Shown: positions 44,105 to 59,405 of the stretch, one piece after another
Numbering within the stretch: the stretch's first letter is position 1
Layout of the letters: each line of letters opens with the position of its first letter
NCBI GenBank assembly: GCA_013306675.1
Contig: JABLUY010000010.1
Location: 124,001 to 188,000 of the forward strand
From: Thraustochytrium sp. TN22
Taxonomy: Eukaryota; Sar; Bigyra; Thraustochytrida; Thraustochytriidae
Reading direction: 5' to 3'
Length of the DNA stretch: 64,000 bases
Translations under genes and position numbers: made by a program
The notes under the pieces: generated by a model
Databases searched by the model: none
Told to the model about the DNA's origin: nothing
The model's input: only the letters and a program-made list of their open reading frames with translations

Positions 44105-47100
44105 ATGCTGGGCGCGGGCGCGGCGGGCGCGGCGGGCGCGGGCGCGGCGGCGCGGCTGGGCGCGGCGGCGGCGCGGAGCCCGTGGCGGAGGGCCCGCGGC
44201 GCGGCGCGAGCGTCGACGGCGGCGGCGGCGGCGACGGCGGCGGGCAGGGCGTCGCAGACGCGCAGCGAGGAGCTGGTGCGGCTGTGGAGAGCGCACCAGG
44301 AGGCGCTCAAGGACGCCAGGAAGGAACTGCGCGCGGCGCGGGACCAGGGCACGACGCTGGAGAACAAGGTGGCGCGGCTGGAGGAAGAGACCATGTTCGT
44401 GGATGCGCGGCTCTCCGTGGCGGAGGAGCACATCAGGGACGAGATGTCGGTGCATTGGCCGTTCTGGAATTTGATTTACCACGCGGCGACGAAGCTGGTG
44501 CCCCTGGTGCGAAAGGACCTGGACCGATCGCTTCTTGAGCTCGAGGCGACCAAGCGGCGCATCGCGGAGCTGGAGGCGGCGGCGGATGCGCAGGCAGGCG
44601 TGCTGCAGCTGTTCGGGCCGGCCGTGCGCGGGCGCGCGGAGCGGCCGCCGGCGCTGCCGTTTTCCTTCTTCTCGCTGGGCAAGGTGGATCCGACCAAGCC
44701 GGTGCAACTGCAGAGTCTGCGGTTCGAGCGGCCGTACGAACCCTACGAGCTGACGTCGGTGAGCTGGTTAGGCCCGCTGCTGGAGCGCTCGGACGCTCTC
44801 GCGAACGTGCTGGCGCTGTGGCAGTCGCCCCTGCCGTGGGACGGCGCGCAGCAGGGCTTTGCGAGCCTGGCGGTGCCGCTCATTAACGTGAGCGGCGGGC
44901 CCGGCGTGGGCACGTCGCGCTTCCTGCAGGCGCTGAGCGCGTCGGCGCAGCCCGTGGACAAGGACCGCGAGATGGTGCCCTTGCACGCGCGGGCGCCGCT
45001 GACGGATGGCCAGGTCAAGTGGCAGGCGCTGCAGGACCTTGGGCCCGGCACGCACCGGCTGCACGGGGCGCTGGGGGTCAACGTCTGCTTCCACGGCGCC
45101 ATGGCCCGCAGCGTGGACCCGTGGGCGGCGCCCGAGGACGCCCTGGTGGCGCGCCTCTTGTATAGTTACTTTGGCCAGGCGTCGTCCTTTGCCGGGTTCC
45201 TCGGCCAGCTGCACGTGGACCGGCTGCCGTCGCTGAGCAGGGCCGTGGACATGATCTTGGACGACGCGGCGGCCCTGGAGAGCCGGCAGGGCGGCAGCGG
45301 TCGCCGGCCGCACGTGGTGCTGTGTGTGGACGACCTCATGCAGGGCGCCCGGGGGGACTTGCCGGACCTGATCCTCATGGTGCTGGCGCTGGCGGATGCC
45401 TGCGAGCGGTGCCCTACGCTACTGCCCGTGGTGTCGTGCCGGTCGCAAGCGATGCTGGAGGAAGCGGCGGCGCGCGCCGGGTGGACGGCCGTGGAGGTGG
45501 CGCTAGCGCCTCTGACAACGGAGAGCGTGTCGGCGCTGGTGGACCGGTACCACGAGGGCAAGGCGTGGCAAAAGCCGCGCTGGATGCACGACCCGGTCGC
45601 CATGCAGCTGGTGGGCGCGTGCGCCGGCCTGCCCAGGCTGCTGGAGCTCGTGCTGCCGAACCTGACGCCTGGGTGGCGTGAGGCGAACGCGCAGGTGCAG
45701 GCGCTCCTGGTGACCAAGCCGATGCAGGCGCTGGTGGAGGAGGACCCGATGTTTGAAGTTCTGCGGCCGGAGGCCTACGAGGCGCTGGCGCTGGCGTTGG
45801 CCGCGTCGGCGCCAGTCGACACGCGCTCCGTGGCGTCGCGGCTGCTGGCCGAGGGCCGCATGAACGGGACGCCGGACGCGCCGTTTCTGCCCGGGCTCGT
45901 GCCGCTCATTTGGATGCAGCAGCTGGGCCTGGAGGAGCCGCCGCCCGGCGCGCGCCAGCTGCTCGGGCTCTTCGAGCAGGTCTTGGAGCCGGCAAACCCG
46001 TCGCGCGCCATGGAGGCGGACGGCCTGCCGCTCGCGAGCGACCCTCGCGCTCTCTCAACCACGCGGCTCGCGGCGGCGCTGATCATGTACTTGCACGCGG
46101 TGGGGCGGCTGACGGGGCCGCTGGAGACGCCAGTGACGCTTCGGTCGCTGCTACTCAGCAACCGAGGCAGCGAGAGTGGCGCGGCGACGAGTGCTTTGGC
46201 GGCGCCGCAGTGCCTGCCGGGCGAGACGCAGGCGATCGACCTGCCGCTGCAGCTTGGCGCGCAGGGTTTTGCTGTGCAGACGGACTTCGTGCCGCCGCCT
46301 GAGCGCTCGGCCTGGGAGCCGGCGCCGATGCAGGTGTACCTGCTGAGCGCGGCCGAGGCGGCGCGGCACCGGCTGGACCTGTGCATCTCGCTCCCCTTGG
46401 AGGGCAGCGAGCAGCGCTGCGTGCTGCTGGGCGTGCGACTCTCCAATAGGGAGGTGCGCGGCGACCTCGCCATGAGCAACACGTACCGCATGGTGGCGGC
46501 GCGGTCGGTCTTCTCGCGTCTCTTTCGCGACGACCGCATGATCTTTTGCTTCTTGCGCGACGGCGACCAGCCCGCGGGTGCGAGCGGCGCAGACCTCACA
46601 GCGCTCTACTCCGAGACGGTTGCGGCTGCCGACAAGACGGACGACCGCCTTCAGCGCATCGCCAAGAATCTGAACGCCGAGCACGTTTGGCACACGCCGT
46701 CGCTGTTGCAGGCCGTGGCGCGCAACACCATCTGTGTGAGCGGCGAAGACACCCTGGCGCTCTTCTCGGACGCCGTTCTGTCGCAGCTGCGCAGTGCCTC
46801 GAGCCCGGCGGCGCTGTACGAGCTCATCGCCACGCGCTTTAGCTTGCTCGACACGCCGTCCACGGAGACAGCCTACTCGCCTGGCGAGCGTCAGCCGGCG
46901 CGCCCGGTTAGCGGCGGCCGGGCCAAGCGTCTGCAGCGCGAGGCCCGCCTGGCCAGCGCGCTGGCCGAGGTCCGCGCGGCCGAGGAGCGCAAGGCGCCGC
47001 GTCGCATCCGCAAAGTCTTGATTCCCTCGCGCCGTCTGGCGCAGCCGCCGGTGGGTCACTCTCCTCCTACTTCTCCTTCCTCGTCGTCGTCGCCGGCCGT

Positions 47101-47125
47101 CAAGGGCACGAAGGCGCGGCGCTGA
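44105..47125 (+). CDS. Coiled-coil protein with divergent STAND-like P-loop NTPase domain
   Basis: 1,006 residues from the ATG at 44105; an in-frame ATG at 43739 is possible. The N terminus is Ala/Arg-rich and could be a mitochondrial presequence (inference). A coiled coil covers about 55-175. From about 260 comes an ATPase-like fold with the P-loop LINVSGGPGVGTSRFLQAL, where Thr stands in place of the Walker A lysine. A Walker B-like strand VVLCVDDLM lies about 150 residues later. The overall plan is reminiscent of STAND/Crinkler-type NTPases of protists, though I cannot place it in a named family. The C terminus is basic with Ser-rich ends. The final about 160 bp is duplicated just downstream (47266-47430). 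It faces the ROCO array tail-to-tail. Confidence 0.72.
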   Translation: MLGAGAAGAAGAGAAARLGAAAARSPWRRARGAARASTAAAAATAAGRASQTRSEELVRLWRAHQEALKDARKELRAARDQGTTLENKVARLEEETMFVDARLSVAEEHIRDEMSVHWPFWNLIYHAATKLVPLVRKDLDRSLLELEATKRRIAELEAAADAQAGVLQLFGPAVRGRAERPPALPFSFFSLGKVDPTKPVQLQSLRFERPYEPYELTSVSWLGPLLERSDALANVLALWQSPLPWDGAQQGFASLAVPLINVSGGPGVGTSRFLQALSASAQPVDKDREMVPLHARAPLTDGQVKWQALQDLGPGTHRLHGALGVNVCFHGAMARSVDPWAAPEDALVARLLYSYFGQASSFAGFLGQLHVDRLPSLSRAVDMILDDAAALESRQGGSGRRPHVVLCVDDLMQGARGDLPDLILMVLALADACERCPTLLPVVSCRSQAMLEEAAARAGWTAVEVALAPLTTESVSALVDRYHEGKAWQKPRWMHDPVAMQLVGACAGLPRLLELVLPNLTPGWREANAQVQALLVTKPMQALVEEDPMFEVLRPEAYEALALALAASAPVDTRSVASRLLAEGRMNGTPDAPFLPGLVPLIWMQQLGLEEPPPGARQLLGLFEQVLEPANPSRAMEADGLPLASDPRALSTTRLAAALIMYLHAVGRLTGPLETPVTLRSLLLSNRGSESGAATSALAAPQCLPGETQAIDLPLQLGAQGFAVQTDFVPPPERSAWEPAPMQVYLLSAAEAARHRLDLCISLPLEGSEQRCVLLGVRLSNREVRGDLAMSNTYRMVAARSVFSRLFRDDRMIFCFLRDGDQPAGASGADLTALYSETVAAADKTDDRLQRIAKNLNAEHVWHTPSLLQAVARNTICVSGEDTLALFSDAVLSQLRSASSPAALYELIATRFSLLDTPSTETAYSPGERQPARPVSGGRAKRLQREARLASALAEVRAAEERKAPRRIRKVLIPSRRLAQPPVGHSPPTSPSSSSSPAVKGTKARR

Positions 47126-47134
47126 GGAGCTTTT

Positions 47135-47225
47135 AAAGATGAATTTGTATGTGTGCAATTTGTTGATGGACAAGAAAGATTGAATTGAAATGCTCTGCAG
47201 TTGAGGCGAAACGCTTTCCTCCGAG
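47135..47225 (+). repeat. Left copy of an imperfect direct repeat flanking the ROCO array
   Basis: Shares GTATGTGTGCAAT, GTTGATGGACA and a CTCTGC.GTT..GGCG core in the same order and orientation with 58729-58810, with moderate divergence. Confidence 0.7.
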
Positions 47226-47265
47226 AATCAGGGCCAGCACCTTAGCAGCGAATGAGACCATGGCG

Positions 47266-47430
47266 GAGGCTCGCGCGGCCGAGGAGATCAAGTCGCCGCG
47301 TTGCGTCCGCGAGGTCTTTGATTCCCTCTCGACGGCTCGCGCAGCTTCTTCTTCTTCTCCGTCGTCATCTTTGTCGACATCGTCGCGATCCTGTTCCACG
47401 ACGGCTGCCAAGGGCGCCCCAAGCCGCGAC
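47266..47430 (+). pseudogene. Duplicated 3' fragment of the NTPase gene
   Basis: Aligns by eye with about 46968-47125. Shared landmarks are CGCGCGGCCGAGGAG, AAGNCGCCGCGTNGC and GATTCCCTC, followed by a Ser-coding TCT/TCG run and an AAGGGC near the end. It has no start or domain of its own and is an unspliced genomic duplicate of the gene end. Confidence 0.7.
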
Positions 47431-47530
47431 GCGGCAGTGAGAATTCGAGCAACCTGTTGAACAAAGAAAATCAACCAAAACAAATGATGAGCTCTCGCGC
47501 AAAGCGCGAGGTGGGGCAGCGACGCAAAAT

Positions 47531-50500
47531 TTACTGGGTAGAACGGCGAATGAGCTCGGCCAGAAAGGCCTCCTCCTCGTAGTAGCGACGGCGAACGGGC
47601 AGCGACTCCTCCTCCTGGAAGAGCCCGGCGCAAAAGTCGGGCGCAGTCTTGATGTAGTCGCCAAAGTCCGCGTAGCCCGGACGCTTCGGGTTGGACTCAT
47701 GCACGCAGACGATCCGCTTGCCCAGGGTCCTGGCGTGCCGTAGCTCCGCGACCACGGCCTCGCTCTGGAAGATGTCGCGCGTCAAGACGAGCACGTAGGT
47801 GAGCGAGTCGCGCACGCCGTCCAACATAGCCTCCCGATTCAGGTTGCCCTGATACTCCTGAGAGAGCCAAACATCGAACTTGCGATCCCGAAACCGGGCC
47901 GCGAGCTTGTCAGCCAGGTCGCCGCCGTAGTCCTCCTTGTGGCTGAGAAAGACGTGGCTCGTGAGACCAGGAGGGAGCTCGGGCACCGTGTACAGCGGCA
48001 CGTCCGTACCACGCTCGTCCGAGTTGAGTGGGCCGATGCCGTCGTCAAAGAAGGGTGCAAAGAAGGCCGTTGCTGCAACCTCCACGTTGCCGTCCGGGTC
48101 CGTGCCCCAGACGTCCTCGTCGCGCACGTGGCGCGCCTCGGCCACGTCCTCGTACAGCACGCGCACCACCGGCGAGCCGGGGCTGCGCAGCAGGAGCTGC
48201 GGGCTGAGCCCGTGGAAGAGCGCCTCCTTCTGCCGCTCTAACATGGACACGAGCTGCTTGAAGATCTTGGCCGGGCGCTGCACGTTGTTGCGCACCGTGA
48301 TGCGAATCACGTCGCCGAGGACCTCAAGCAGGAAGCAGTCGCGCCCGAAAAAGACGCGCGCCGTCTTGCGGTCCACCACGGGCGGCAAGGGCCGGCGGGA
48401 ACGAGACGTGGAGAGGACGCCCTCGCTCAGGGCGTAGGTCGCGCACTGCGCCACGAGGCGGTGAAAGACGCCGTCCGGCAGGAAAAAGGACGAAAAGTCC
48501 AGGTCGCACGAGGCGCCGCGCTCGAAGCTGGAGGTCTTCACCTCCTGGACCGAGTCCGACAGCAGACCCGAGACCAGGTACGAGTCGGACCCATCGAAGC
48601 GCCACGCGCACAGCAGCAGGTTGGCCTCCATGAAGGCGATCAGGTAGTCCACCTGCTTGCCCCCCCAGAGCCAGTCCAGCAGCGCCCGAGACGCCACGCC
48701 GTCCTTCTCGCGCATGCGCACCAGCGCCGAAAGCAGCCCGGCCGCCTGCAGCGCCTCGTTGCTGTACAAGCCATGCATGTGCATGTCGTCCGCAATGACG
48801 CGCGCCAGCTTGTCCAGCAGCCACTGCGGCTCCAGGACGACCACGCGCGCCAGCGTCTCCGACCCGCGCAGGTGCACCACCACGCCGAGACCGTGAAAGT
48901 ACCGCAGCATCGCGTCCACGTCCGCGCCAGAGCGGCCGTACCGGGCCGCCAGCTCCAGGACGGCCTCGTACAGGACAAAGGGCTCCTTCGTCAGCAGGAG
49001 GTCCTCGTGCACCTTGAGCCACGCCAGCGGCACCTCCTGCTTCATGTAGTCCTGCTGCACCGCCGTTGACACGACGGCCTTGCGCAGCTCCGACGCGCGC
49101 TCCGGGTCGTGGCTGCTGTTGTCCACCGCGAAGAACTGATACCCGCCCTTGGGCTTCACCAGCGTCGACATGGCGTCCAGCTCCAGCTGCGACAGCAACA
49201 CGCGGTCCACCTTGCGCAGCTCCGCCTCGTGGCTCACCTGGTCCAGGTAGGTGCCCACCAGGAGCACCGGAGCGCCCGGCGCGTGCAGCCGGATGCTGTT
49301 GAGCCAGAAGACCAGGTACTCCACCGCCGCCTCGCGCGACTCGCGCCCGAGGACCTCGCGCATGTCAAAGACCACCAGGTACAGGCCCTTGTCCGTGAGG
49401 AAGATGTGGTGCAGCGCGTAAAACACCTGCTGGCCGCCGTAGTCCCAGATCGTGAAACTCACGTCCGACCCCACCTCGGCCTCCCCGCGCAGCACCGCCT
49501 GGTCCGCCTCCGTCAGCTCGAACTGCTGCGCCATCTCCTCCTCCGTCAGCACCGGGGGGGGCGCCGGCGCGCCCGACGACGACGACGACGACGACGTGCC
49601 CGAGACGCGACGCAGCGAGGCGCGCACGCTCTGGCCCACGGCCTGGACCGCCTGGCGCAGCGCGGCCGACGCGCGACGGGTGCGTCCGGCCGGCGACGGC
49701 TCCATCACCGCCGCCAGCAGCAGCAGCAGCGCCTCCTTGCGCACCTGCATGAAGAGCTCGCCGATATCCGACTCAATCTCCACCAGGTCCTCGCCCTGCA
49801 CGCGCGTGCGCAGCACGTCCGCCACCTGCGTCGACACGTGCTCCGCCACCGGCGCCTGCTTGCACATGGACCGCTTCGTCGACGACTTGCCCGCCTCGCC
49901 CTGGCCCACGATCATCAGCTTGCACCGCCCCCACGGCCGCTTGCCCCCTCCCCGCACCACCGTCTGCACCGCCGCGTCAAACCGCTCGCTCTCCGCAGCG
50001 CCGCCACCCGCGGGCGCCTCCGCAGGCACCGGGTTCTCCTTGTTGCGCTCGAGCGCCGCGTCGACCCTAGCCGCGATCGATGAGTCCGTGATTTTGTTGC
50101 TGCCGACGCTGAGATTGAGGGCCGCGAAAGCGGTTAGCTTTCTTGGAGTTCGCGTCAAAAACGCGTCATTCGCAGCGACGCCGAGGCTTGCGCAGATGTG
50201 AAAAAAAAAAGAACCTACTACAGCTCCGTGAGCCAGCGGTTCTCCTCCATGGCCCCGGCCAGCGCCTCCGCGCCAGCATTGCCGATCTTGTTATATGCCA
50301 GGCTGTCATCGCCCCCTCGTCAGCCATGTCCGTCGCGCTCGAGCCCCGCGGCGCCGTGCGAATGGACTTCTTCTCGATCCGCTGCCGCACGAGCTTTGCC
50401 GCCCGCCCCGCCGCTCGCCCCGCCGCTCGCTCGTTCGCTCGTCATTTGCCCGCCCGCCCGCCCGCCCGCCCGCCTGCGCTCTCGCACTCTCGCGTGCTTG

Positions 50501-50614
50501 CGCGCGGCGCAGCCCGCCCAACTCACTCACTTCAGGTACTTCAACGACCGGTTGCGCCGCAGCGCGCGCGCAAGCGCCTGCGCGCCCTTGTCGCCGATGT
50601 TGTTGGAGTAGAGC
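47531..50614 (-). CDS. ROCO1: LRR-Roc-COR-TIR protein, 5' end incomplete
   Basis: The main exon 47531-50108 is preceded by two LRR exons of exactly 84 bp (50219-50302 and 50531-50614). Splicing all in phase 2 gives continuous repeats of the type LxxLNLAYNKIGNAGAEALA. Downstream lie a Roc GTPase and then a COR domain. Roc has the P-loop GQGEAGKSS, DYGGQQ switch II and G4 as TYLD; a long insert with a Ser run separates G1 and G3. A C-terminal TIR domain begins SHVFLSHKEDYGGDLADKL and keeps a Glu in WLSQEYQGN at the position of the SARM1-type catalytic Glu. Roco GTPases dimerise through COR, and TIR domains can hydrolyse NAD+ or scaffold. No 5' exon with a start could be fixed upstream of 50614. 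Copies of four ROCO2 exons appear missing there, so the gene may be truncated. Confidence 0.8.
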
Positions 50615-51904
50615 CTGCGATTCCAAAACGCGAGCGCGCGCACTCTCTCCCTTCGTCAGTCGTTGCGCGTGCCGCCCCAGGCTGCCCGCTCCGCTCCCTC
50701 CGTCCCTCCTCGTCTCCCTTTCCCGCCGGCCCGCCGCCGCGCGCCCGCCCGAGCGCCCGCGCGCCCGCCCGCGCGCCGCGCTCTCCCCGCCCCGCGCCGC
50801 CTCGCCTCGCGCCGCGCCGCGCCGCCGCGCGAGCCGGGGCCCTCGCCTCTCTCCCTCTCCTCTCTCTCGTCCCCTGCGGCGGCGGCGGCCTCGGCGCCGC
50901 TCGCCGCGCGCCAGGGCCGCGTACCGGGTCTGCTGGTGGCCGTGGATGCCGCCGCCGCGCCGGCCTGCCTTCCTGTCGGCGCGTGCCGGCGCGCGGCGCG
51001 CCGGGGGGGAGGGGGGCTGCTGCGGCGGCCTTGGCCCGAGCGCGCCGCGCCCGCGCCCTCCCCCGCCCCCGCGCGCGCGGCGCGGCGCGGCGCTGCGCGG
51101 CGCGCAAGGGCGGCCGGGTGCAGGTGCCAGGCGCGGCGCGTGCACGTGCCCACGGCGCCTCAACTAGGCGCCAAGCAGGGGGCGGCGCGGGCGGCGGCGT
51201 GGCGGCCGCGCGCGGGCGCGCGGGGCGGGGGGGGGGCGCCCGGCCGAGGCGGGGGAGCGGGTGGGCTGGGCCGGCTGCGCGCCGAGACGGCCGTTGGAGG
51301 CACGTGGGCCCGCACTGCGCGATGAGGGCGGAAAACTTGCCGCGGATGTCGGGAACGCGGGGAACAAAGCAGGGCTCCAAAACTTGCGTCGTTGCGTCGG
51401 GCCTTCGTCTGGTGCGGGTCGTGGAGGCTTGTGGGGAGGAGTTCTCAATAGATCGGTTCAGGGATGCCTGCGCGAAAGATCTTGAAGTAGAGGGTGCCTG
51501 CGCCGGCCTTGGAATGAACTCCCTCTCGTTCAGCGGGACTCCAAAGACCAGCTTCTCGCCTAGCCTCTTACGCAGCGGGTTCGTCTTTCGTTCCGACATC
51601 TCAGGCCGCAGCTTGCCTTGAACTCCTGCGTCTCATTCGCCCAGGCGCGCAGGTACTTGTACACAAGGCGCTTGCCACCGGCGCGAGTCGCTCACGCCGA
51701 GCCCGGACTTTGCATGCACGATACGGACAAGTAGATTTGGTCCCTGCAAATTGCCGCAACCAAATCTTGCTTGCTCGCGCATACGCCAGTCTTCACCACA
51801 GAACTTGAATGCGCGAATGGTTGGCCGGAACCTTTACTGCGAGGACAGAGGCCGCGCCTGTGCGCAATGCAACGAGCTTGAAAACAACAACATTTCTTAC
51901 TTAC
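50615..51904. other. 5' region of ROCO1 and 3' flank of ROCO2
   Basis: 50640-50930 resembles the ROCO2 intron at 54950-55100. It then switches to sequence like 56440-56700, upstream of ROCO2 exon 1, as if the material between had been deleted. 51330-51900 resembles 56860-57470. No LRR exon was found in this stretch on the minus strand. Confidence 0.6.
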
Positions 51905-54900
51905 CTACAGAAAGCAGGCGTCCGCAAGTGCGGACATGAACGCCTCTTGCTCGAAATACTTGCGACGCAGCGCAAGCGAGGCGGCCGGGTCGGCCAGAAG
52001 AAAGGACAGAAACGAAGGCACCGATGCGACGTAGGCAGTCCAAGGCGCAAAGGTTGGCCGAAAGGGGTCTGCCTCGTGGACCAGCACGACGCGCTTGCCA
52101 AGATCCACAGCAGCGCGGAGCTCCTCGCGGACGGCGGAGCTCGAGAAGACGCCCGCGGTGAGCACGAGCACCACGACGCGTGACCCGCGCACTGCCCCAT
52201 CTGAAGCGAGCTCCGCGCCCTGCGTCCCGGCGACGACGACACCGCGGCGCTCGAGCTTGCGGGCGAGGTCGCCGGCAATACCCGCGTTGTCGTGGCAGAG
52301 AAACGCGTGGCTCGACTCGTCCGGACCAAGCGCCGGCACGGCCAGCTGAACGGGCTCGTCGTCATCAGCGTCCGGGTCGAAATGTGCGCCGGCCTGGAAG
52401 AAGCGGTCGAACTCCCCCACAGACACTTTGGTCTTGCGAGGGCGCACCGCTTCGACGCGCTTCGTGGAGCCCGGGGCCCACAGCGCGAGAAGCGCCACGT
52501 ACGCCACGACTGCACCCGAAACCGGACTCACCACCATGAGCTCCCAGGGCAGACGCGCAAAGACGGCCTCCTGCTGCTTGCGGAACATAGAGACGACCAG
52601 CTTGAGGACAAGCACCGGGCGCTCGGCCGCCGCATCCGCCGTGATGCGCAAGACATCGCCTTGCACGCTGATAGAGAAGCGGTCCGAGCCAAACGCCATG
52701 AGCGCTGCGTGCCGGCCGATCTGCGGCTGCAGCGCATCGACGCCAAGGTGCGCGGCGTAGTTAGCCGCCTGCGCGATGAGGCGCTCGAAGACGCCGTCCG
52801 GCAGATACAGCCGGCTGCAGTCCAGCTCGCAGGCCAAGCCAGGCGAGAAGTCGCCCAGCTCGAGCGGCGCGGCGCCGTCCAGCACGCCCAGCAGGCCAGT
52901 GACCATGTAGACCTCGTCGGCGCGCGCGTCGTCGCCAAAGGCCCAAAACGCAATGAGCATGTTCTCCTCCATGAATGCCAGCAGGTAATCCACCTCCTGC
53001 CCACGCCAGAGCCACTCGAGCAAGGCGCGCGAGGCGAGCGCGTCGCGCCGCAGCCGCTGAAAGGCAGCCTGAAGCACAGGGTTGCCGGTCTTTTCGAGCT
53101 CCAGCTGCGTTGCGCCAACGTGTATATCGGCTGCGATGACGCAAGCCAGCTTGTCCAACAGCCACTGGGGCTCCAGGACTACGACGCGCGCCAGCGTCTC
53201 CGATCCACGCAAGTGCACCACCACCCCAAGCCCGCGAAAGTACAGCAGCATCGCGTCCACCTCCGCACCGGAGCATCCGTAGCGTCCTGCCATCTCCAGG
53301 ACCGTCTCGTACGCGACAAAGGGCTCCTTCGTGAGCAGGAGCTCCTCGTGCACCTTGAGCCATGCCAGGGGTACCTCCTGCTTCATGTAGTCCTGCTGCA
53401 AGGCCGCTGCCACAACGGCCTTGCGCAGCTCCGATGCCCGCTCCGGGTCGCTGCTGCTGTTGTCCACCGCGAAGAACACGCGGTGCCCCGCCGGCTTGAC
53501 CAACGTGGGAATCTTGTCCGCCTGAAGCGGGGGCGCCCGCAGTGTGCGGTCCACCAGGCGCAAGTCAGCCGCACGGTGTACCTGGTCCAAGTGGGTGCCG
53601 ACCAGGAGCACCGGTGCACCTTGCGCGTGCAGCTCGATACTGTTGAGCCAGAAGCGCAGGTACTCCACCGCCTTGCTGCGCGTCTCACGCCGAAGGACCT
53701 CACGCATGTCGAAGACCACCAGGTACAGGCCCCTGTCCGTGAGGAAGATGTGGTGCAGCGCGTAAAACACCTGCTGGCCGCCGTAGTCCCAGATCGTGAA
53801 GCTCACGTCCGACCCCACCTCGGCCTCGCCGCACAGCACCGCCTGGTCCGCCTCCGTCAGCTCGAATTGCTGCGCCGTCTCTTCCTCTGAGAGCACCGGG
53901 GTGCGGGGCGTGTCCGTGGGCAGAGGCGCGTCCCTCGCCGTCGAGGAGCCGCCCGAGCCGCGACGCAGTGAAGCGCGTACGCCTTGGCCAAGAGCCTCGG
54001 CGGCCTGCCGTAGCGGAAGCCACGCACGACGAGTCCTTCCGGCCGAGACCGGCTCCGGTGCCTCCGCCAGCAGCAGCAGCAGCGCCTCCTTGCGCACCTG
54101 CTCCGCCAGCTCGCCCACGTCCGAGTCAATCAGCGCCAGGTCCTCGCCCTGCACACGCGTGCGCAGCACGTCCGCCACCTGCGTCGACACGTGCTCCGCC
54201 ACCGGCGCCTGCTTGCACATGGACCGCTGGGTCGACGACTTGCCAGCCTCGCCCTGGCCCACGATCATCAGCTTGCACCGCCCCCACGGCCGCTTGCCCC
54301 CGCCCCGCACCACCGTCTGCACCGCCGCGTCGAATTGCGCGCCCTCCAGGTTCTCCTGGTTGCGCTGGATTGCCGCGTCGATCCTATCCAAGATCGATGA
54401 GTCCGTGATGAGGCTAAAGATTGAGGGCCGCGAAAGTGGTTAGCTTCCAGTGTGTGTCAAACGAGAGAAGGCGTCATTCGCAGCGACGCCGAGGCTTGCG
54501 CAGATGTGGTAATTGAACGTACTGCAGCTCCGTGAGCCAACGGTTCTCCTCCATGGCCCCGGCCAGCGCCTCCGCGCCAGCATTGCCGATCTTGTTTGAA
54601 TGCAGGCTGTCATCACGCTCTCGTCAGCCATGTCCGTCGCGCTCGAATCCCGCGGCGCCGTGCGAATGGACTTCTCTTAATCCCCGCCGCGCGAGCTTTG
54701 CCGCCCGCCCAGCCGCTCGCCCTGCCGCTCGCCCCGCCGCCGCTCGCTCGTTCCTCTTCGCTCGCTTGTCTTTTGCCCACCCGCCCGCCCGCGCTCTTGC
54801 ACTCTCGCGTGCTTGCGCGCGGCGCAGCCCGCGCTTCTCAACTCACCCCAGGATCTCCAATGACCGATTGCGCCGCAGCGCGCGCGCAAGCGCCCGCGCG

Positions 54901-56279
54901 CCCTTGTCGCCGATGTAGTTGGCATGGAGCCTGCGATTCCAAAACGCGAGAGCGCACTCACTCCCTTCATCAGTCGTTACGCGTGCCTCACCCCGCCGCG
55001 CGAGCCGGGGCCCTCTCGCTCTCCCTCTCCTCTCGCTCGTCCCGTGCGGCTGCGGCGGCGGCCTCGGCGTCGCTCGCCGCGCGCCATCGCTTGGCGAGCC
55101 CGCCCGCCAGCGCATCGCGCACCCGACTGCCTTCTCGCCGCGCGCCCGACGTACCACATCATCTCGATCGTTGCGCTGCCCCCCAGCCAGGCCGCCAGCC
55201 TCTCGGCGCCCGCGTCGCCCATGTTGTTGTCACCGAGGCTGCGGTCCGAGAGCAGGCGTCCATACGGCATGGCGCGCGCGCGGTCCGAGTGGCCAGGCAC
55301 GTGAGTCAGTCTCTCTAGCTAGGTGTTCTCCTGCAGGAGCTGCGATGCCTCTCAGCTCGCCCGCGCGCCTCGCCTCCCCTCGCCGCGCCGCGCCGCGCCG
55401 CGTCAGGCCACTGCGCGCGGCTCGAGCCGTCGCAAGCGCGCAGACGGCCGGCGGGCGGGCGGCTCGCGCCAAGCGGTCCGCTGACGGCCGCGCCCTTTTG
55501 CTTGAACTAACTTACTTCAGAAATGTGAGCGTCGTGCTGCCTTCGAGCGCCCTCGCCACGGCGGCCGTGCCCGCGGCGCCGATGTTGCTTCCCCCGATTC
55601 TGCGCTCCGCGAGAGGCCAAGCGAGCAGCCAGTTCGTGTGAGTTTGTCTTTCATCCGAGTTCTGACATTTTCACAGTCAATGTTCATCCATTCAAGTTCT
55701 TAACTGTGGTGTCAGGTCTAACCGGCGCGGTCGCGACGCCGCGCGCCGATCGGGCGCGGTGAGCCCGCCTCGGTCACGCCCACGCAGACCGTCAACTCAC
55801 GATAGACCCGTAACTGTCATGTTGCCCTTGAGCGCCTTCGCCAGCGTGAGGGAGTGCGCCTCGCCGATGTCCTCGTCGTGCAGGCTGCTTCCACGAGTCC
55901 CGTCCGAGGTCAGTCATTCGCCGCTCGCGGGTCCTCTCTCTCCCCTCCTCCTCCGCGCCCGTCTCCCCTCTCTCGCTCGCTCGCTCTCCGCCCGCCTGAC
56001 CGCCTGCCTGGCTGGCTGGCCGGCCGCCCCTCGCAGCTGCTGCACCGCGCAGGCCGCCCGCGCGCTCGCCGCCGCTGCCTGCCGCACGCCGCCTGCCTGC
56101 GCCGCAGCCCTCGGCCCTGCTGCCTGCCCCTCTGCGAGCCGCCCTCCCGCCCGCCTGCCTGCCTGTCTGTCCGTATCTGGCGCAACGCACTAGATCATGG
56201 CCTCGCCGTCCTGGATGGCGCTCACGGCCTCGGCCGCCGTGTCGGCCATGTACCAGCCATTGCTCTGCTTCCTGCCCAT
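51905..56279 (-). CDS. ROCO2: LRR-Roc-COR-TIR protein assembled from seven exons
   Basis: Proposed exons (5' to 3'): 56191-56279, 55801-55884, 55516-55599, 55155-55238, 54847-54930, 54523-54606 and 51905-54413. They total 3,018 bp and give 1,005 residues. The start ATG lies in GCCGCCATGGGC. Five middle exons are exactly 84 bp, all phase 2, each one 28-residue LRR of RI type, for example LGDNNMGDAGAERLAAWLGG. All donors are GT(A/G)NGT-like except one weaker GTGCGT. The last exon encodes a short linker, Roc (GQGEAGKSS, DYGGQQ, THLD), COR, and a C-terminal TIR-like domain beginning SHAFLCHDNAGIAGDLARKL. The TIR has GTQGAELAS where ROCO1 has LSQEYQGN, so the catalytic Glu position looks altered. 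It is probably an NLR-like signalling sensor; the ligand is unknown. Confidence 0.78.
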
Positions 56280-57479
56280 GGCGGCCTCCCGGTCGTCCTC
56301 ACCGCGCTCGTCTGCGCGGCTGGCTGCCTGCGTGCGCCGCTGCGTGGGCGCGCGCGTGGGCCGTGTCGGCGGCGGGCGCCGCGCGTGCGCGCGAGCCGCG
56401 CTGCCTCGCGCCGCGCGCCCGCCCGCCCGGAGCTGCGGCGGCGGCGATGTGGGTCTGCTGCTGCCCGTGGATGCCGCCGCCGCGCTGGCCTGCCTCGTTG
56501 GCGCGTGCCGGCGCGCTGCGTGCGGGTGGGAGGAAGGGCTGCTGCGGCGGCCTTGGCCCGAGCGCGGCGCGCCCGCGCCCTCCCCCGCCCCCGCGCGGCG
56601 CGGCGCGGCGCTGCGCTGCGCGGCGCGGCGTGCGCCAAGCGGCAGGTACGGCGCGCGCACGTGCGCGCGCTGCCTCTCACCAGGCGCCATGAAGTGGGTC
56701 ACACTGGCATAGGCGGCGGCGCGGCGGCCACGCGCGGCCGCCGGGGGGCCGGAGGCCGTCGGTCGGGGTTGGGCCGCGGGCAGGCTGAGCCGGCTGCGCG
56801 CCGCAGACGGCCGGCGGAGGCGCGCGGGCCGCACTGCGCGGCAAGGGTGGGAAACTTGCCGCGGATGACGGGAACGCGGGGAATGAAGGTGGGCCTCGGG
56901 AACTTGCATCAAAGCGTTGGGCCTCGTCTGGTGCTGCTCGTGGAGGCCTGAGTTGAGGTGTTTGCATCAGGCCGGCTCATCGATGCATGCGCGAAAGATC
57001 TTAAAAAAGTTGAGAGTGCCTGCACCGCGCCCCGGAATGAACTCCTTCTCCTTCAGCGGGACCTCAAAAGACCAGCTTCTTGTGTGTCGTTTTCACATCT
57101 GACGCAGCGGGTTCGTCTTTCGATCCAACATCTCAGGCCGCCGCTTCCTTGCAATCCGACGCCAGATTCGCCCAGGTCACCCTGCAGTCCGGATTTGCGC
57201 GGCGCGCAGGTACTTGTACACACCGCTCTTGCCACTGGCGCGAGTCGCGCACGTCGAGCCCGGACTTTGCATGCACGATACGGACAAGTAGATGTGGCCT
57301 CTGCAAATTGCCGCAACCACAATTGGCTTGCTCGCGCATAGTTACGCCAGTCCCCCTCACAGAACTTGAATGCGCAAATGATTGGCCGGAACGTTCCTTC
57401 GTTTTTCTGCGAGGACACAGGCCGCGCCTGTGCGCGATGCAACGAGCTTGAAAAAAACAACCCAACTTTTTCAACATTT
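56280..57479. other. ROCO2 promoter region and 3' flank of the third ROCO copy
   Basis: 1.2 kb without a supported gene. 56440-56700 and 56850-57470 are homologous to 50930-51150 and 51330-51900, so this is the duplicated intergenic spacer of the array. The open frames here are GC-driven. Confidence 0.6.
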
Positions 57480-58693
57480 TCAATACCGAAAGCAGGCGTC
57501 CGCAAGTGCGGACATGAACGCCTCTTGCTCGAAATACTTGCGACGCAGCGCAAGCGAGGCGCCCGGGTCGGCCAGAAGAAAGGACAGAAACGAAGGCACC
57601 GATGCGACGTAGGCAGACCAAGGCGCAAAGGTTGGCCGAAAGGGGTCTGCCTCGTGGACCAGCACGACGCGCTTGCCAAGATCCACAGCAACACGGAGCT
57701 CCTCGCGGACGGCGGAGCTCGAGAAGACGCCCGCGGTGAGCACGAGTACCACGACGCGCGACCCGCTCACTGCCCCATCTGAAGCGATCCCCGCGCCCTG
57801 CGTCCCGGCGACGACGACACCGCGGCGCTCGAGCTTGCGGGCGAGGTCGCCGGCGATACCCGCGTTGTCATGGCAAAGAAACACGTGGCTCGACTCGTTC
57901 GGACCAATGCGGCACACGAAGTCGCGCGCATCATCTCACTGGAGAGCACGACGAGTGAGCTCGGCCAAAAAGGGCCTCTTCCTCGTAGTAGGTAGTTTTG
58001 ATGTAGTCGCCAGAAGGAGCAAAGCCCGGGCGGTCCGGGATGGTCTCGTTCGCACAAAGAATCGTCTTGCCGCAGTCCACGGCCTGGCGAAGCTCGCGTT
58101 GCACGGCGGCACTGCTAAAGACGCCCTGCGCCAGGACGAGCACGGAGGTGAGCATGCTGCGCACTTCGTCCACCATGGCCTGCATGTAAAGGTTGGCCCG
58201 AAAATTCTGCGAGATCCAAACGTGGAGCCCGCGGGCGCGGAGCCGGTCCGCGGCGCTGCGCGAGGCCGCCATTATAGTCCTCCTTGGGACTGAGGAAGAC
58301 GTGGCTCGTGAGACCAGCAGGGAGCTTGGGCACTGGGTACCGCGGCAAGATCGTGCCACGCTTGTCCGAGTCGAGCGGACCGATGCCGTCGTCGGAGAAG
58401 GGTGCAGAGGAAGCCGTCGCTGCCACGTCCTCGATGCCGGCTTCGTCCGTGCCATCTGCCCCTCGAACATGGACACACACAGCTTGAAGATTTTTGGGGG
58501 GCGGCCGCTGCTGAAAAACCCGCGCGCCTTCTTGCGGTCCACCACGGGCGGCGAGGGCTGCCTGGAACGAGACGTGGAGGGGACGCCCTCGCTCAGCGCG
58601 TATGTCGCGCATTGCGCCACGAGGCGGTGAAAGACGCCGTCGGGAGAAAGGAAAAAGTCCAGGTCGCACGAGGCGCCCACGCTCAAAGATCGA
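57480..58693 (-). pseudogene. ROCO3: chimeric, 5'-truncated Roco/TIR pseudogene
   Basis: 57480-57917 is a near-identical copy of the ROCO2 TIR (begins SSHVFLCHDNAGIAGDLARK). 57931-58693 matches the ROCO1-type COR-C and TIR: LSPDGVFHRLVAQCATYALS near its 5' end and RGLHVWISQNFRANLYMQAM near its 3' end. Between these two matches the reading frame changes twice and about 130 bp are lost, so the COR-TIR junction is out of frame. No Roc or LRR sequence remains. On the coding strand the ROCO1-type end comes first and the ROCO2-type TIR follows within 15 bp, so the locus looks like a crossover product. It could be transcribed, but no intact Roco protein can be read. Confidence 0.78.
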
Positions 58694-58704
58694 GGTGTTC
58701 TTGA

Positions 58705-58731
58705 GAAAAAAAAGAAAAAAAAAAAAAGAAT
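58705..58731 (+). repeat. A-rich tract at the broken 5' edge of ROCO3
   Basis: Two A-runs (8 and 13) separated by a G, between the last ROCO homology and the right flanking repeat. ROCO1 has a similar A-run at 50201-50210 beside an LRR exon. Confidence 0.85.
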
Positions 58732-58810
58732 TCGTTCGTATGTGTGCAATGGGTTGATGGACAGGATAGACAGAAGCGCTCTGCTGTTATGGCGGAGCTC
58801 TCCTCCAAGG
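58729..58810 (+). repeat. Right copy of the direct repeat flanking the ROCO array
   Basis: Same order and orientation as 47135-47225 (CGTATGTGTGCAAT, GTTGATGGACA, GCTCTGC). The 3' part continues into the CBS gene's 3' UTR. Confidence 0.7.
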
Positions 58811-58829
58811 ACGAGTCAACGAGCGGACA

Positions 58830-59405
58830 TTATCCGTCGTGAATGGGCATCTTCTCGGCGCGGATCTCGTTGAGCGTGTGCAGCGTAACGTGGCGCTCGT
58901 CCGCGAGCGCCTTGGCAATGTCCTTGATGTCGAGAAGCGCGACAATGGTGCCGTCGCTCTCGGCGATGGGCAGGTGGCGGATGTTCTTCATGACCATGAC
59001 GTCGATGCAGTCCTGCATGACATCATCGGGCGTGGCTACGATGAGCTGATTGCCCATGGTGGCGATCTCGTGCACGGGCGTCTTGTCGGAGGTCTTGCCG
59101 CAGTGCAGCACCTTGGTGAGGTAGTCGCGCTCCGTGATGATGCCCACGATCTGATCGCCCTCGGTCACGCAGAGTGCGCCGGTGCGGTGCTCCACCATCT
59201 GGCGCGTCGCCTGCAGCACCGTGACATCGGCCGAGACCGTCCACCGGTGCACCTTGCGCGCCTGATCCGCCACGTTGATGACGTCCTTGACGCGCTGCAC
59301 GTTGAGGTCCACGGCCGACGCCATGCCCCTCGCCAGCGCGGGCGGCGCCCCCGCGCTCAGCCGCGCCACCGTCCTCGCGCTCGCGTGCGCGGCCGCGCTC
59401 AGCAT
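58830..59405 (-). CDS. Mitochondrial CBS-pair protein (CBSX3-like)
   Basis: 191 residues from the ATG at 59405-59403; the frame is open to 59468 but only with G/R-rich residues. The N terminus MLSAAAHASARTVARLSAGA is Arg-rich without acids, fitting a mitochondrial presequence. Two CBS motifs follow: TVLQATRQMVEHRTGALCVT with GIITERDYLTKVLHCGKTS, then DVMQDCIDVMVMKNIRHLPI with ALLDIKDIAKAL. The pattern matches small CBS-only proteins such as plant CBSX3 and bacterial homologues, which bind adenosyl ligands and modulate thioredoxins or other partners. There is no fused enzyme domain. The stop lies close to the right flanking repeat of the ROCO array. Confidence 0.85.
   Translation of the reverse strand: MLSAAAHASARTVARLSAGAPPALARGMASAVDLNVQRVKDVINVADQARKVHRWTVSADVTVLQATRQMVEHRTGALCVTEGDQIVGIITERDYLTKVLHCGKTSDKTPVHEIATMGNQLIVATPDDVMQDCIDVMVMKNIRHLPIAESDGTIVALLDIKDIAKALADERHVTLHTLNEIRAEKMPIHDG

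Follow-up and report, generated by a model that had tools for sequence, protein, structure and literature searches.

Here, we describe a minus-strand array of genes that combine leucine-rich repeats (LRRs) with a Roc GTPase, a COR and a C-terminal TIR domain, located in a 64,000-nt stretch (the window) of the 37.9-Mb, 453-contig assembly of Thraustochytrium sp. TN22. The predicted content of the array is one complete gene model (ROCO2), one truncated copy (ROCO1) and one remnant ('ROCO3'). The original prediction had named three head-to-tail copies; two of these hold up as Roc/COR frames, with ROCO1 truncated, and the third is a remnant without Roc or COR-A. The parts of the array, in window positions, are the following:

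47144–47226, no strand: left-edge repeat of ~80 bp; the region homologous to contig C410 (L042) starts at 47142
47531–50108, minus strand: ROCO1 main exon with partial LRR, Roc, COR and TIR (Pfam, AlphaFold2, Foldseek)
50219–50302, minus strand: ROCO1 LRR exon, 84 bp (LRR scan, AG/GT borders)
50531–50614, minus strand: ROCO1 LRR exon, 84 bp (LRR scan, AG/GT borders)
51905–54413, minus strand: ROCO2 exon 7, encoding the final partial LRR, the Roc and COR domains and a diverged TIR (Pfam)
54523–54606, minus strand: ROCO2 LRR exon 6, 84 bp (LRR scan, AG/GT borders)
54847–54930, minus strand: ROCO2 LRR exon 5, 84 bp (LRR scan, AG/GT borders)
55155–55238, minus strand: ROCO2 LRR exon 4, 84 bp (LRR scan, AG/GT borders)
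55516–55599, minus strand: ROCO2 LRR exon 3, 84 bp (LRR scan, AG/GT borders)
55801–55884, minus strand: ROCO2 LRR exon 2, 84 bp, phase 2 (LRR scan, AG/GT borders)
56191–56279, minus strand: ROCO2 exon 1 with start ATG at 56279, MGRKQSNGWYMADTAAEAVSAIQDGEAMI (splice model, GT donor)
57480–57935, minus strand: remnant with the TIR end of a gene of ROCO2/L015 type (TIR_2 sub-threshold at 20.6 bits; inside the 92.5% L015 match)
57934–58700, minus strand: remnant, ROCO1/L012-type COR-C and TIR, frame disturbed (TIR_2 19.6 bits; 87% to L012 over 57992–58453)
58735–58810, no strand: copy of the left-edge repeat on the right side of the array (score 57, against at most 23 in 200 shuffles)

The 919-aa open frame of ROCO1 (47531–50290, minus strand) keeps the P-loop, G3 and G4 motifs and the TIR glutamate, and its Pfam matches to Roc (2.2e-15), COR-A (1.3e-11) and TIR_2 (1.2e-8; 35.9 bits, cut-off 28) were each above the cut-off. 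The main frame of ROCO2 (51905–54439, minus strand) likewise matched Roc (6.6e-17) and COR-A (3.5e-9) above cut-off. Pfam thereby recovered the Roc and COR segments named in the original prediction in both genes and the TIR in ROCO1; the proposed LRR-Roc-COR-TIR make-up is less secure for ROCO2, in which the TIR falls below the cut-off. The putative spliced ROCO2 model (56279–51905, minus strand) joins seven exons into 1005 aa, starts at 56279 and has no internal stop. It contains LRR_6 (7.6e-11), Roc (9.6e-17), COR-A (4.5e-9) and TIR_2 (3.3e-4, sub-threshold) in the domain order LRR, Roc, COR, diverged TIR. The stop codon TAG (51905) is directly followed by GTAAGTAA, a good splice donor, and the gene possibly ends in a 3' untranslated-region intron or has an alternative C-terminus.

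In both genes the LRR exons are located upstream of the Roc exon, in the right order and on the same strand (five in ROCO2, two in ROCO1). A scan of 47000–59000 with a profile of nine 28-residue ribonuclease-inhibitor (RI)-type repeat strings, six from the family gene L029 and three from window repeats, gave seven minus-strand matches (scores 32.6–72.7), all upstream of a Roc frame; four of these (56.2–72.7) owe part of their score to the window repeats in the profile, unlike the remaining three (32.6, 34.1 and 42.6). The best plus-strand match scored 13.6 and the highest of 20 codon shuffles 21.6, which bears out the claim that LRR exons and Roc frames share a strand. All seven units are exons of exactly 84 bp with AG/GT borders, in phase 2.

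The ROCO1 model comprises two LRR exons and the main exon; it is 5'-truncated relative to ROCO2, and no start exon was found upstream of its main exon. Self-comparison of the array aligned 48615–50673 with 52956–54987 and 50926–52329 with 56451–57907, and ROCO1 has no counterpart of ROCO2 54987–56451, which holds the ROCO2 start exon together with three of its LRR exons. No second copy of the ROCO2 start exon was found within the array by tblastn. Gene L015 on contig C285 encodes the same 29 aa as this exon, and the stretch 55984–57907 is a 92.5% match to this contig around the end of L015. Pfam scanning of the supposed third copy (57480–58700) gave neither Roc nor COR-A. 'ROCO3' is chimeric, with a ROCO2-type TIR end adjoining a frame-disturbed ROCO1-type COR/TIR piece that is closest to L012/L011. 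The window could be seen as mainly a decaying cluster, with ROCO1 and ROCO3 as pseudogenes and ROCO2 as the sole gene that might work, as suggested by the exons missing from ROCO1, the chimeric state of ROCO3 and the sub-threshold TIR of ROCO2. However, ROCO1 retains its long open frame with the motifs named above, ROCO2 is open across seven exons, and the whole-frame ratio of nonsynonymous to synonymous substitution rates (dN/dS) of both genes is <1 against close paralogues (ROCO1/L010 0.53). Decay fits ROCO3 and leaves the genome-wide family unexplained, and we consider it very improbable as an account of the array.

A search of the assembly with the window protein P0001 gave at least 68 matches, with 50 of 108 candidates scored. 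The loci fetched yielded 45 frames longer than 500 aa and extending into the Roc half; without L043, 44 frames make up the family as analysed here, some of them cut by contig ends and alleles possibly included. Further copies of the TIR-Roco family are thus present far beyond the window. A maximum-likelihood tree of 301–407 residues from Roc into COR separated two clades of 22 frames (A and B), both starred; the root was placed at the midpoint, and the placement of the long branches L051, L063 and L029 is unsure. Pfam scans took in 42 of the 44 frames (all except L050 and L052; reporting limits E 0.01 to 0.1). Roc (PF08477) was above cut-off in 35 of the 42, the other seven including frames cut inside Roc, and COR-A (PF16095), which lies directly after Roc, was above cut-off in 40 of 42. 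Among all 44 frames (L050 and L052 counted from a genome-wide TIR_2 search), TIR_2 was above cut-off in 34, below it in four (ROCO2, L015, L025 and L029) and undetected in six (L017, which is cut at a contig end, L021, L027, L028, L051 and L063); L028 has a TIR in a neighbouring frame (24.6 bits). We had considered that clade B might lack a TIR, as the alignment of P0001 to most of its members stopped at about residue 617, and rejected this because Pfam gives a TIR in all eight of L032–L039. Of the 36 frames that extend to the P-loop GxxxxGK[S/T] (eight start later), 33 have it intact (exceptions L011, L051 and L054), as read by eye from the 45-row alignment with L043 excluded.

In L055, L056 and L058, LRR_6, Roc, COR-A and TIR_2 are all above cut-off in a single stop-free frame, and L029 has LRR_6, Roc and COR-A above cut-off in one frame with the TIR below (25.4 of 28 bits). 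The fusion is therefore visible without any assumption about splicing. Neither NB-ARC nor NACHT was matched in the 42 frames scanned, in agreement with the proposal that Roc-COR stands in their place, and no kinase was matched in the same frames. Two neighbouring genes on contig C288 (L061 and L062, 26500–36000) carry a TIR at both ends, i.e., TIR-Roc-COR-TIR. The excluded gene L043 (contig C62, 480–5147, minus strand) encodes LRR-Roc-COR with a C-terminal trypsin-like domain. Genome-wide, there were 123 TIR_2 matches in 37.9 Mb versus two NB-ARC matches; 36 TIR_2 matches are within hand-drawn Roco intervals and 87 elsewhere, two of the 87 (C288) lying in the Roco frames of L061/L062. Many of the TIR_2 matches outside Roco intervals sit in frames of 1000–3000 aa.

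The TIR of the family appears to be of the NADase-related kind, judged by its TIR fold and its helix-C glutamate. All 40 frames that extend to this glutamate have it (the other four end or are cut before it), read by eye from the same 45-row alignment. In a profile alignment, in clade-A register, the family glutamate falls on the glutamate of SARM1 WVHKE, which we take to be the catalytic E642; the PDB title of 7cm7 in the Foldseek listing names an E642A form. A profile of 16 family TIRs retrieved the bacterial TIR 3h16 (2.7e-9), SARM1 (8.8e-9), AbTIR and the plant TIRs RPV1 and RUN1. Its matches to Toll/IL-1R-type TIRs had E of 0.85–1.8 only. The AlphaFold2 model of ROCO1, computed with 29 paralogues, had a predicted local distance difference test score (pLDDT) of 78.9 and a predicted template modelling score (pTM) of 0.74. 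In a Foldseek search of this model against the PDB, the Roc-COR part retrieved LRRK2, LRRK1 and CtRoco (best E 2.4e-17), and the first TIR was that of SARM1 (rank 22, E 1.8e-5).

The LRRs are N-terminal, of RI type and 28 or 29 aa long, mostly with one repeat per symmetrical phase-2 exon. Over 199 kb of loci, the LRR scan gave 114 same-strand matches and none on the opposite strand, with some overlapping loci counted twice and six L029 repeats in the profile. Of 82 separate units, 78 lie exactly between AG and GT (52 of 84 bp, 26 of 87 bp), in keeping with the repeat-exon LRRs of the original prediction; this count excludes 39 matches, of which 34 lie within the main frame or downstream of it and five are duplicates. 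Some units are contiguous inside the main frame, e.g., in L029 and L055. Amino-acid differences between clade-A paralogues are concentrated at the five predicted concave positions, which were set from the LxxLxLxxN strand pattern after the sequences had been seen. ROCO1 and ROCO2 differ at 7/9 concave versus 2/46 scaffold positions (Fisher p 5.9e-6), ROCO2 and L015 at 16/24 versus 21/115 (p 5.9e-6), and L010 and L015 at 21/24 versus 27/115 (p 5.3e-9). The concave fraction was higher in all nine pairs compared (other six p 1.9e-5 to 8.3e-4), out of 21 possible pairs among seven paralogues; the pairs share sequences, and split codons were rebuilt. A clear dN/dS excess at these positions was rejected, as the proportion of nonsynonymous differences (pN) was higher than that of synonymous differences (pS) in three of the nine pairs (0.488/0.455, 0.451/0.414 and 0.444/0.379) and lower in six. 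At scaffold positions, pN exceeded pS in none of the nine. Because the concave pN excess is small and on few sites, the pattern shows concentrated variation in clade A rather than proven positive selection.

The family has evolved in a mosaic fashion, with many copies and with fragments. L011 is a mosaic: it is 94% identical to ROCO1 over 2.2 kb, and over the following 0.6 kb it is 89% identical to ROCO2 but only 75% to ROCO1; its P-loop half is in a second, overlapping frame. The 3' part of L021 is 93% like ROCO2. Contig C285 has an arrangement that differs from that of the window: L017 matches the ROCO2 region at 97.7% over 3.7 kb, and L015 next to it is similar to the TIR end of the remnant. 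Contig C160 carries six family TIR ends in a row (L040, 83–5817), the last five spaced by 1043 bp and most of them frame-disturbed. The large family with chimeric copies, the different arrangement on C285 and the NADase-type TIR would also suit allorecognition, in which the same LRR-Roc-COR-TIR machinery would sense conspecifics as non-self (fusion or mating incompatibility) instead of sensing pathogens. Yet C285 could represent a block of paralogues and not the second haplotype, and we regard allorecognition alone as distinctly improbable.

In some pairs, single domains show dN/dS near 1 (ROCO1/L010 COR 0.96, on few changes; ROCO1/L016 Roc 1.05; ROCO1/L019 Roc 0.99), and the main frame as a whole is below 1 in every pair compared. 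The latter is also expected if these proteins, like many Rocos, serve non-immune stress responses or cell regulation, in which case the diverse LRRs would correspond to numerous endogenous binding partners. The roles given for known Rocos in PMC11378527 lie in chemotaxis, cell division, development and trafficking. Such roles do not readily predict the concentration of changes on the concave face, the many copies with fragments and mosaics, or NADase-type TIRs that keep their glutamate, and we consider this explanation unlikely, although somewhat less so than allorecognition. A nearby viral or bacterial origin was rejected on pattern scans: no relative was found at E<=1e-3 (61 pattern stretches against genome contigs, 27 against viral contigs), these scans reaching close relatives or a limited collection and not the ultimate origin. 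A plasmid scan gave matches to the Roc-COR region at 22–26% identity in 10 records.

With a little more confidence than doubt, we favour the reading that the family represents receptors resembling nucleotide-binding LRR (NLR) proteins, in which a Roc-COR GTPase replaces the NB-ARC/NACHT ATPase and a TIR NADase gives the output. The LRR-Roc-COR-TIR anatomy is visible in the gene models, and an NLR-like function is likely; such a role can fairly be inferred because the family is large and recombining, has one LRR per exon, varies at concave residues and conserves the TIR glutamate. More tentatively, and with doubt here outweighing confidence, the family might form a stramenopile innate-immune or allorecognition repertoire of dozens of LRR-Roc-COR-TIR receptors that use a Roc-GTPase switch and not a STAND ATPase, vary their ligand surface through recombining single-LRR exons and have a TIR NADase output; NLR function would then have been reached independently on an LRRK2-type chassis.

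Several observations weigh against an NLR-like role. In ROCO2, TIR_2 scores 20.9 bits in the main frame and 21.6 in the spliced model (cut-off 28), and much of the BB-loop stretch is lost; TIRs of the ROCO2 type are divergent in the BB-loop region. The ROCO1 TIR alone retrieved no TIR among PDB sequences with phmmer, and ROCO1 may be non-functional without a start exon. The clade-A and clade-B glutamates are three columns apart in a 16-row MAFFT alignment and share a single column in the 45-row alignment, so that the register is surer for clade A than for clade B. Main-frame dN/dS is 0.17–0.73 in 13 of 13 pairs, and the slight excess of pN at concave positions in a minority of pairs, on few sites, does not amount to strict positive selection. 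The near-identical pairs L010/L011 (about 1/37 concave sites) and ROCO2/L017 (none) show no concave excess; these two pairs and ROCO1/L011 were examined only in a count taking position 1 from the intron AG, and the concave-face result covers clade A only. The haploid gene number would be lower than 44 if both haplotypes are present in the assembly. Finally, many brown-algal ROCO genes respond to other stress conditions, as given in passages of PMC11378527, and an expansion is therefore no proof of immunity.

If the family is indeed NLR-like, signalling could proceed as follows. A foreign or altered-self ligand would bind the LRR arc, and nucleotide exchange or hydrolysis in Roc would alter a COR-mediated dimer or oligomer; GTP binding and hydrolysis and a dimer cycle are suggested for Roc by the P-loop and G3/G4 motifs only. 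The COR-mediated change would bring TIRs together, and clustered TIRs might cleave NAD+ or make a nucleotide signal that triggers cell death or defence. With one repeat per exon, recombination could swap the binding surface and leave the frame intact. NLR-like receptors would then have arisen on a third nucleotide-switch chassis, in a single-celled heterotroph. It would become testable whether Roc-COR dimerisation gates a TIR enzyme, which bears on how the Roc-COR of LRRK2 acts on an attached effector. The exon-shuffled LRR-ROCOs of brown algae (groups 1–2), which have no recognised output domain, would gain relatives with one.

Because the homology to contig C410 begins at 47142, the ~80-bp direct repeat that brackets the array may mark the edge of a duplicated block. 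The adjoining plus-strand frame P0006 (43706–47125, 1139 aa) gave no Pfam match at E 0.1; by eye, stretches of it resemble P-loop and Walker B motifs. The GC content of the window is 59–76% per 2-kb block, higher than the 43–47% in published figures for five labyrinthulomycete genomes. The assembly contains no match to the light-harvesting family and two matches to PfaD-type polyunsaturated fatty acid synthase (C124:42424-43761, 668 bits; C415:117114-118451, 661 bits), which are perhaps two haplotypes or two genes. Among eukaryotes this enzyme is a mark of labyrinthulomycetes, and along with the missing light-harvesting family and the SAR-type Roco-trypsin gene L043 it indirectly indicates an organism of this group.

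Among known systems, the LRR-ROCOs of brown algae are among the closest counterparts. As described in passages of PMC11378527, they number 31 genes in Ectocarpus and 47 in Nemacystus, undergo exon shuffling, have positively selected concave-face sites and are proposed immune receptors. They share with the family described here a stramenopile Roco expansion in which each LRR has its own phase-2 exon. These exons are of 72 bp and encode 23-aa LRRs in brown algae (PMC11378527, in part), whereas those of the family are of 84 or 87 bp and encode 28- or 29-aa RI-type LRRs. Brown-algal groups 1–2 are LRR-ROC-COR without TIR in the same passages, whereas a C-terminal TIR is the rule in this assembly. 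Group 3 resembles L043 in its C-terminal peptidase domain, and Rocos with a C-terminal trypsin-like domain occur in brown algae and some other organisms of the stramenopile-alveolate-rhizarian (SAR) group (PMC11378527, relevant passages). Diatoms, oomycetes or Schizochytrium aggregatum have at most four ROCOs by that account, far fewer than found here. Fusion of Roco and TIR is shared with the TPR-ROCO-TIR of Chondrus crispus, which has TPRs in place of LRRs (PMC11378527, in part), and with Trichoplax, in which TIR is among the domains of ROC-COR proteins (figure legend in PMC4104024); the passages concerned describe no expansion in either.

The family also has elements in common with the plant TIR-NLRs and animal NLRs, namely LRRs, a nucleotide switch and an output on one chain. 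Those NLRs form expanded clusters, and the domain order of plant TIR-NLRs is the reverse of the LRR-switch-TIR order of the family. The switch is Roc-COR here and NB-ARC/NACHT in NLRs, NB-ARC being found at only two places in the assembly. SARM1 and the bacterial and plant NADase TIRs share the TIR fold and helix-C glutamate, but SARM1 has ARM-SAM rather than LRR-Roc-COR. LRRK1, LRRK2 and CtRoco share the Roc-COR sequence and fold, and the LRRKs end in kinase-WD40. We did not recognise an expanded LRR-Roc-COR-TIR family among the matches listed in open-licence PMC literature on Roco, TIR, LRR and protists. Roco expansion, single-LRR exons and Roco-TIR fusion are each already known; what appears to be new is their combination in an expanded LRR-Roc-COR-TIR family with 84/87-bp exons.

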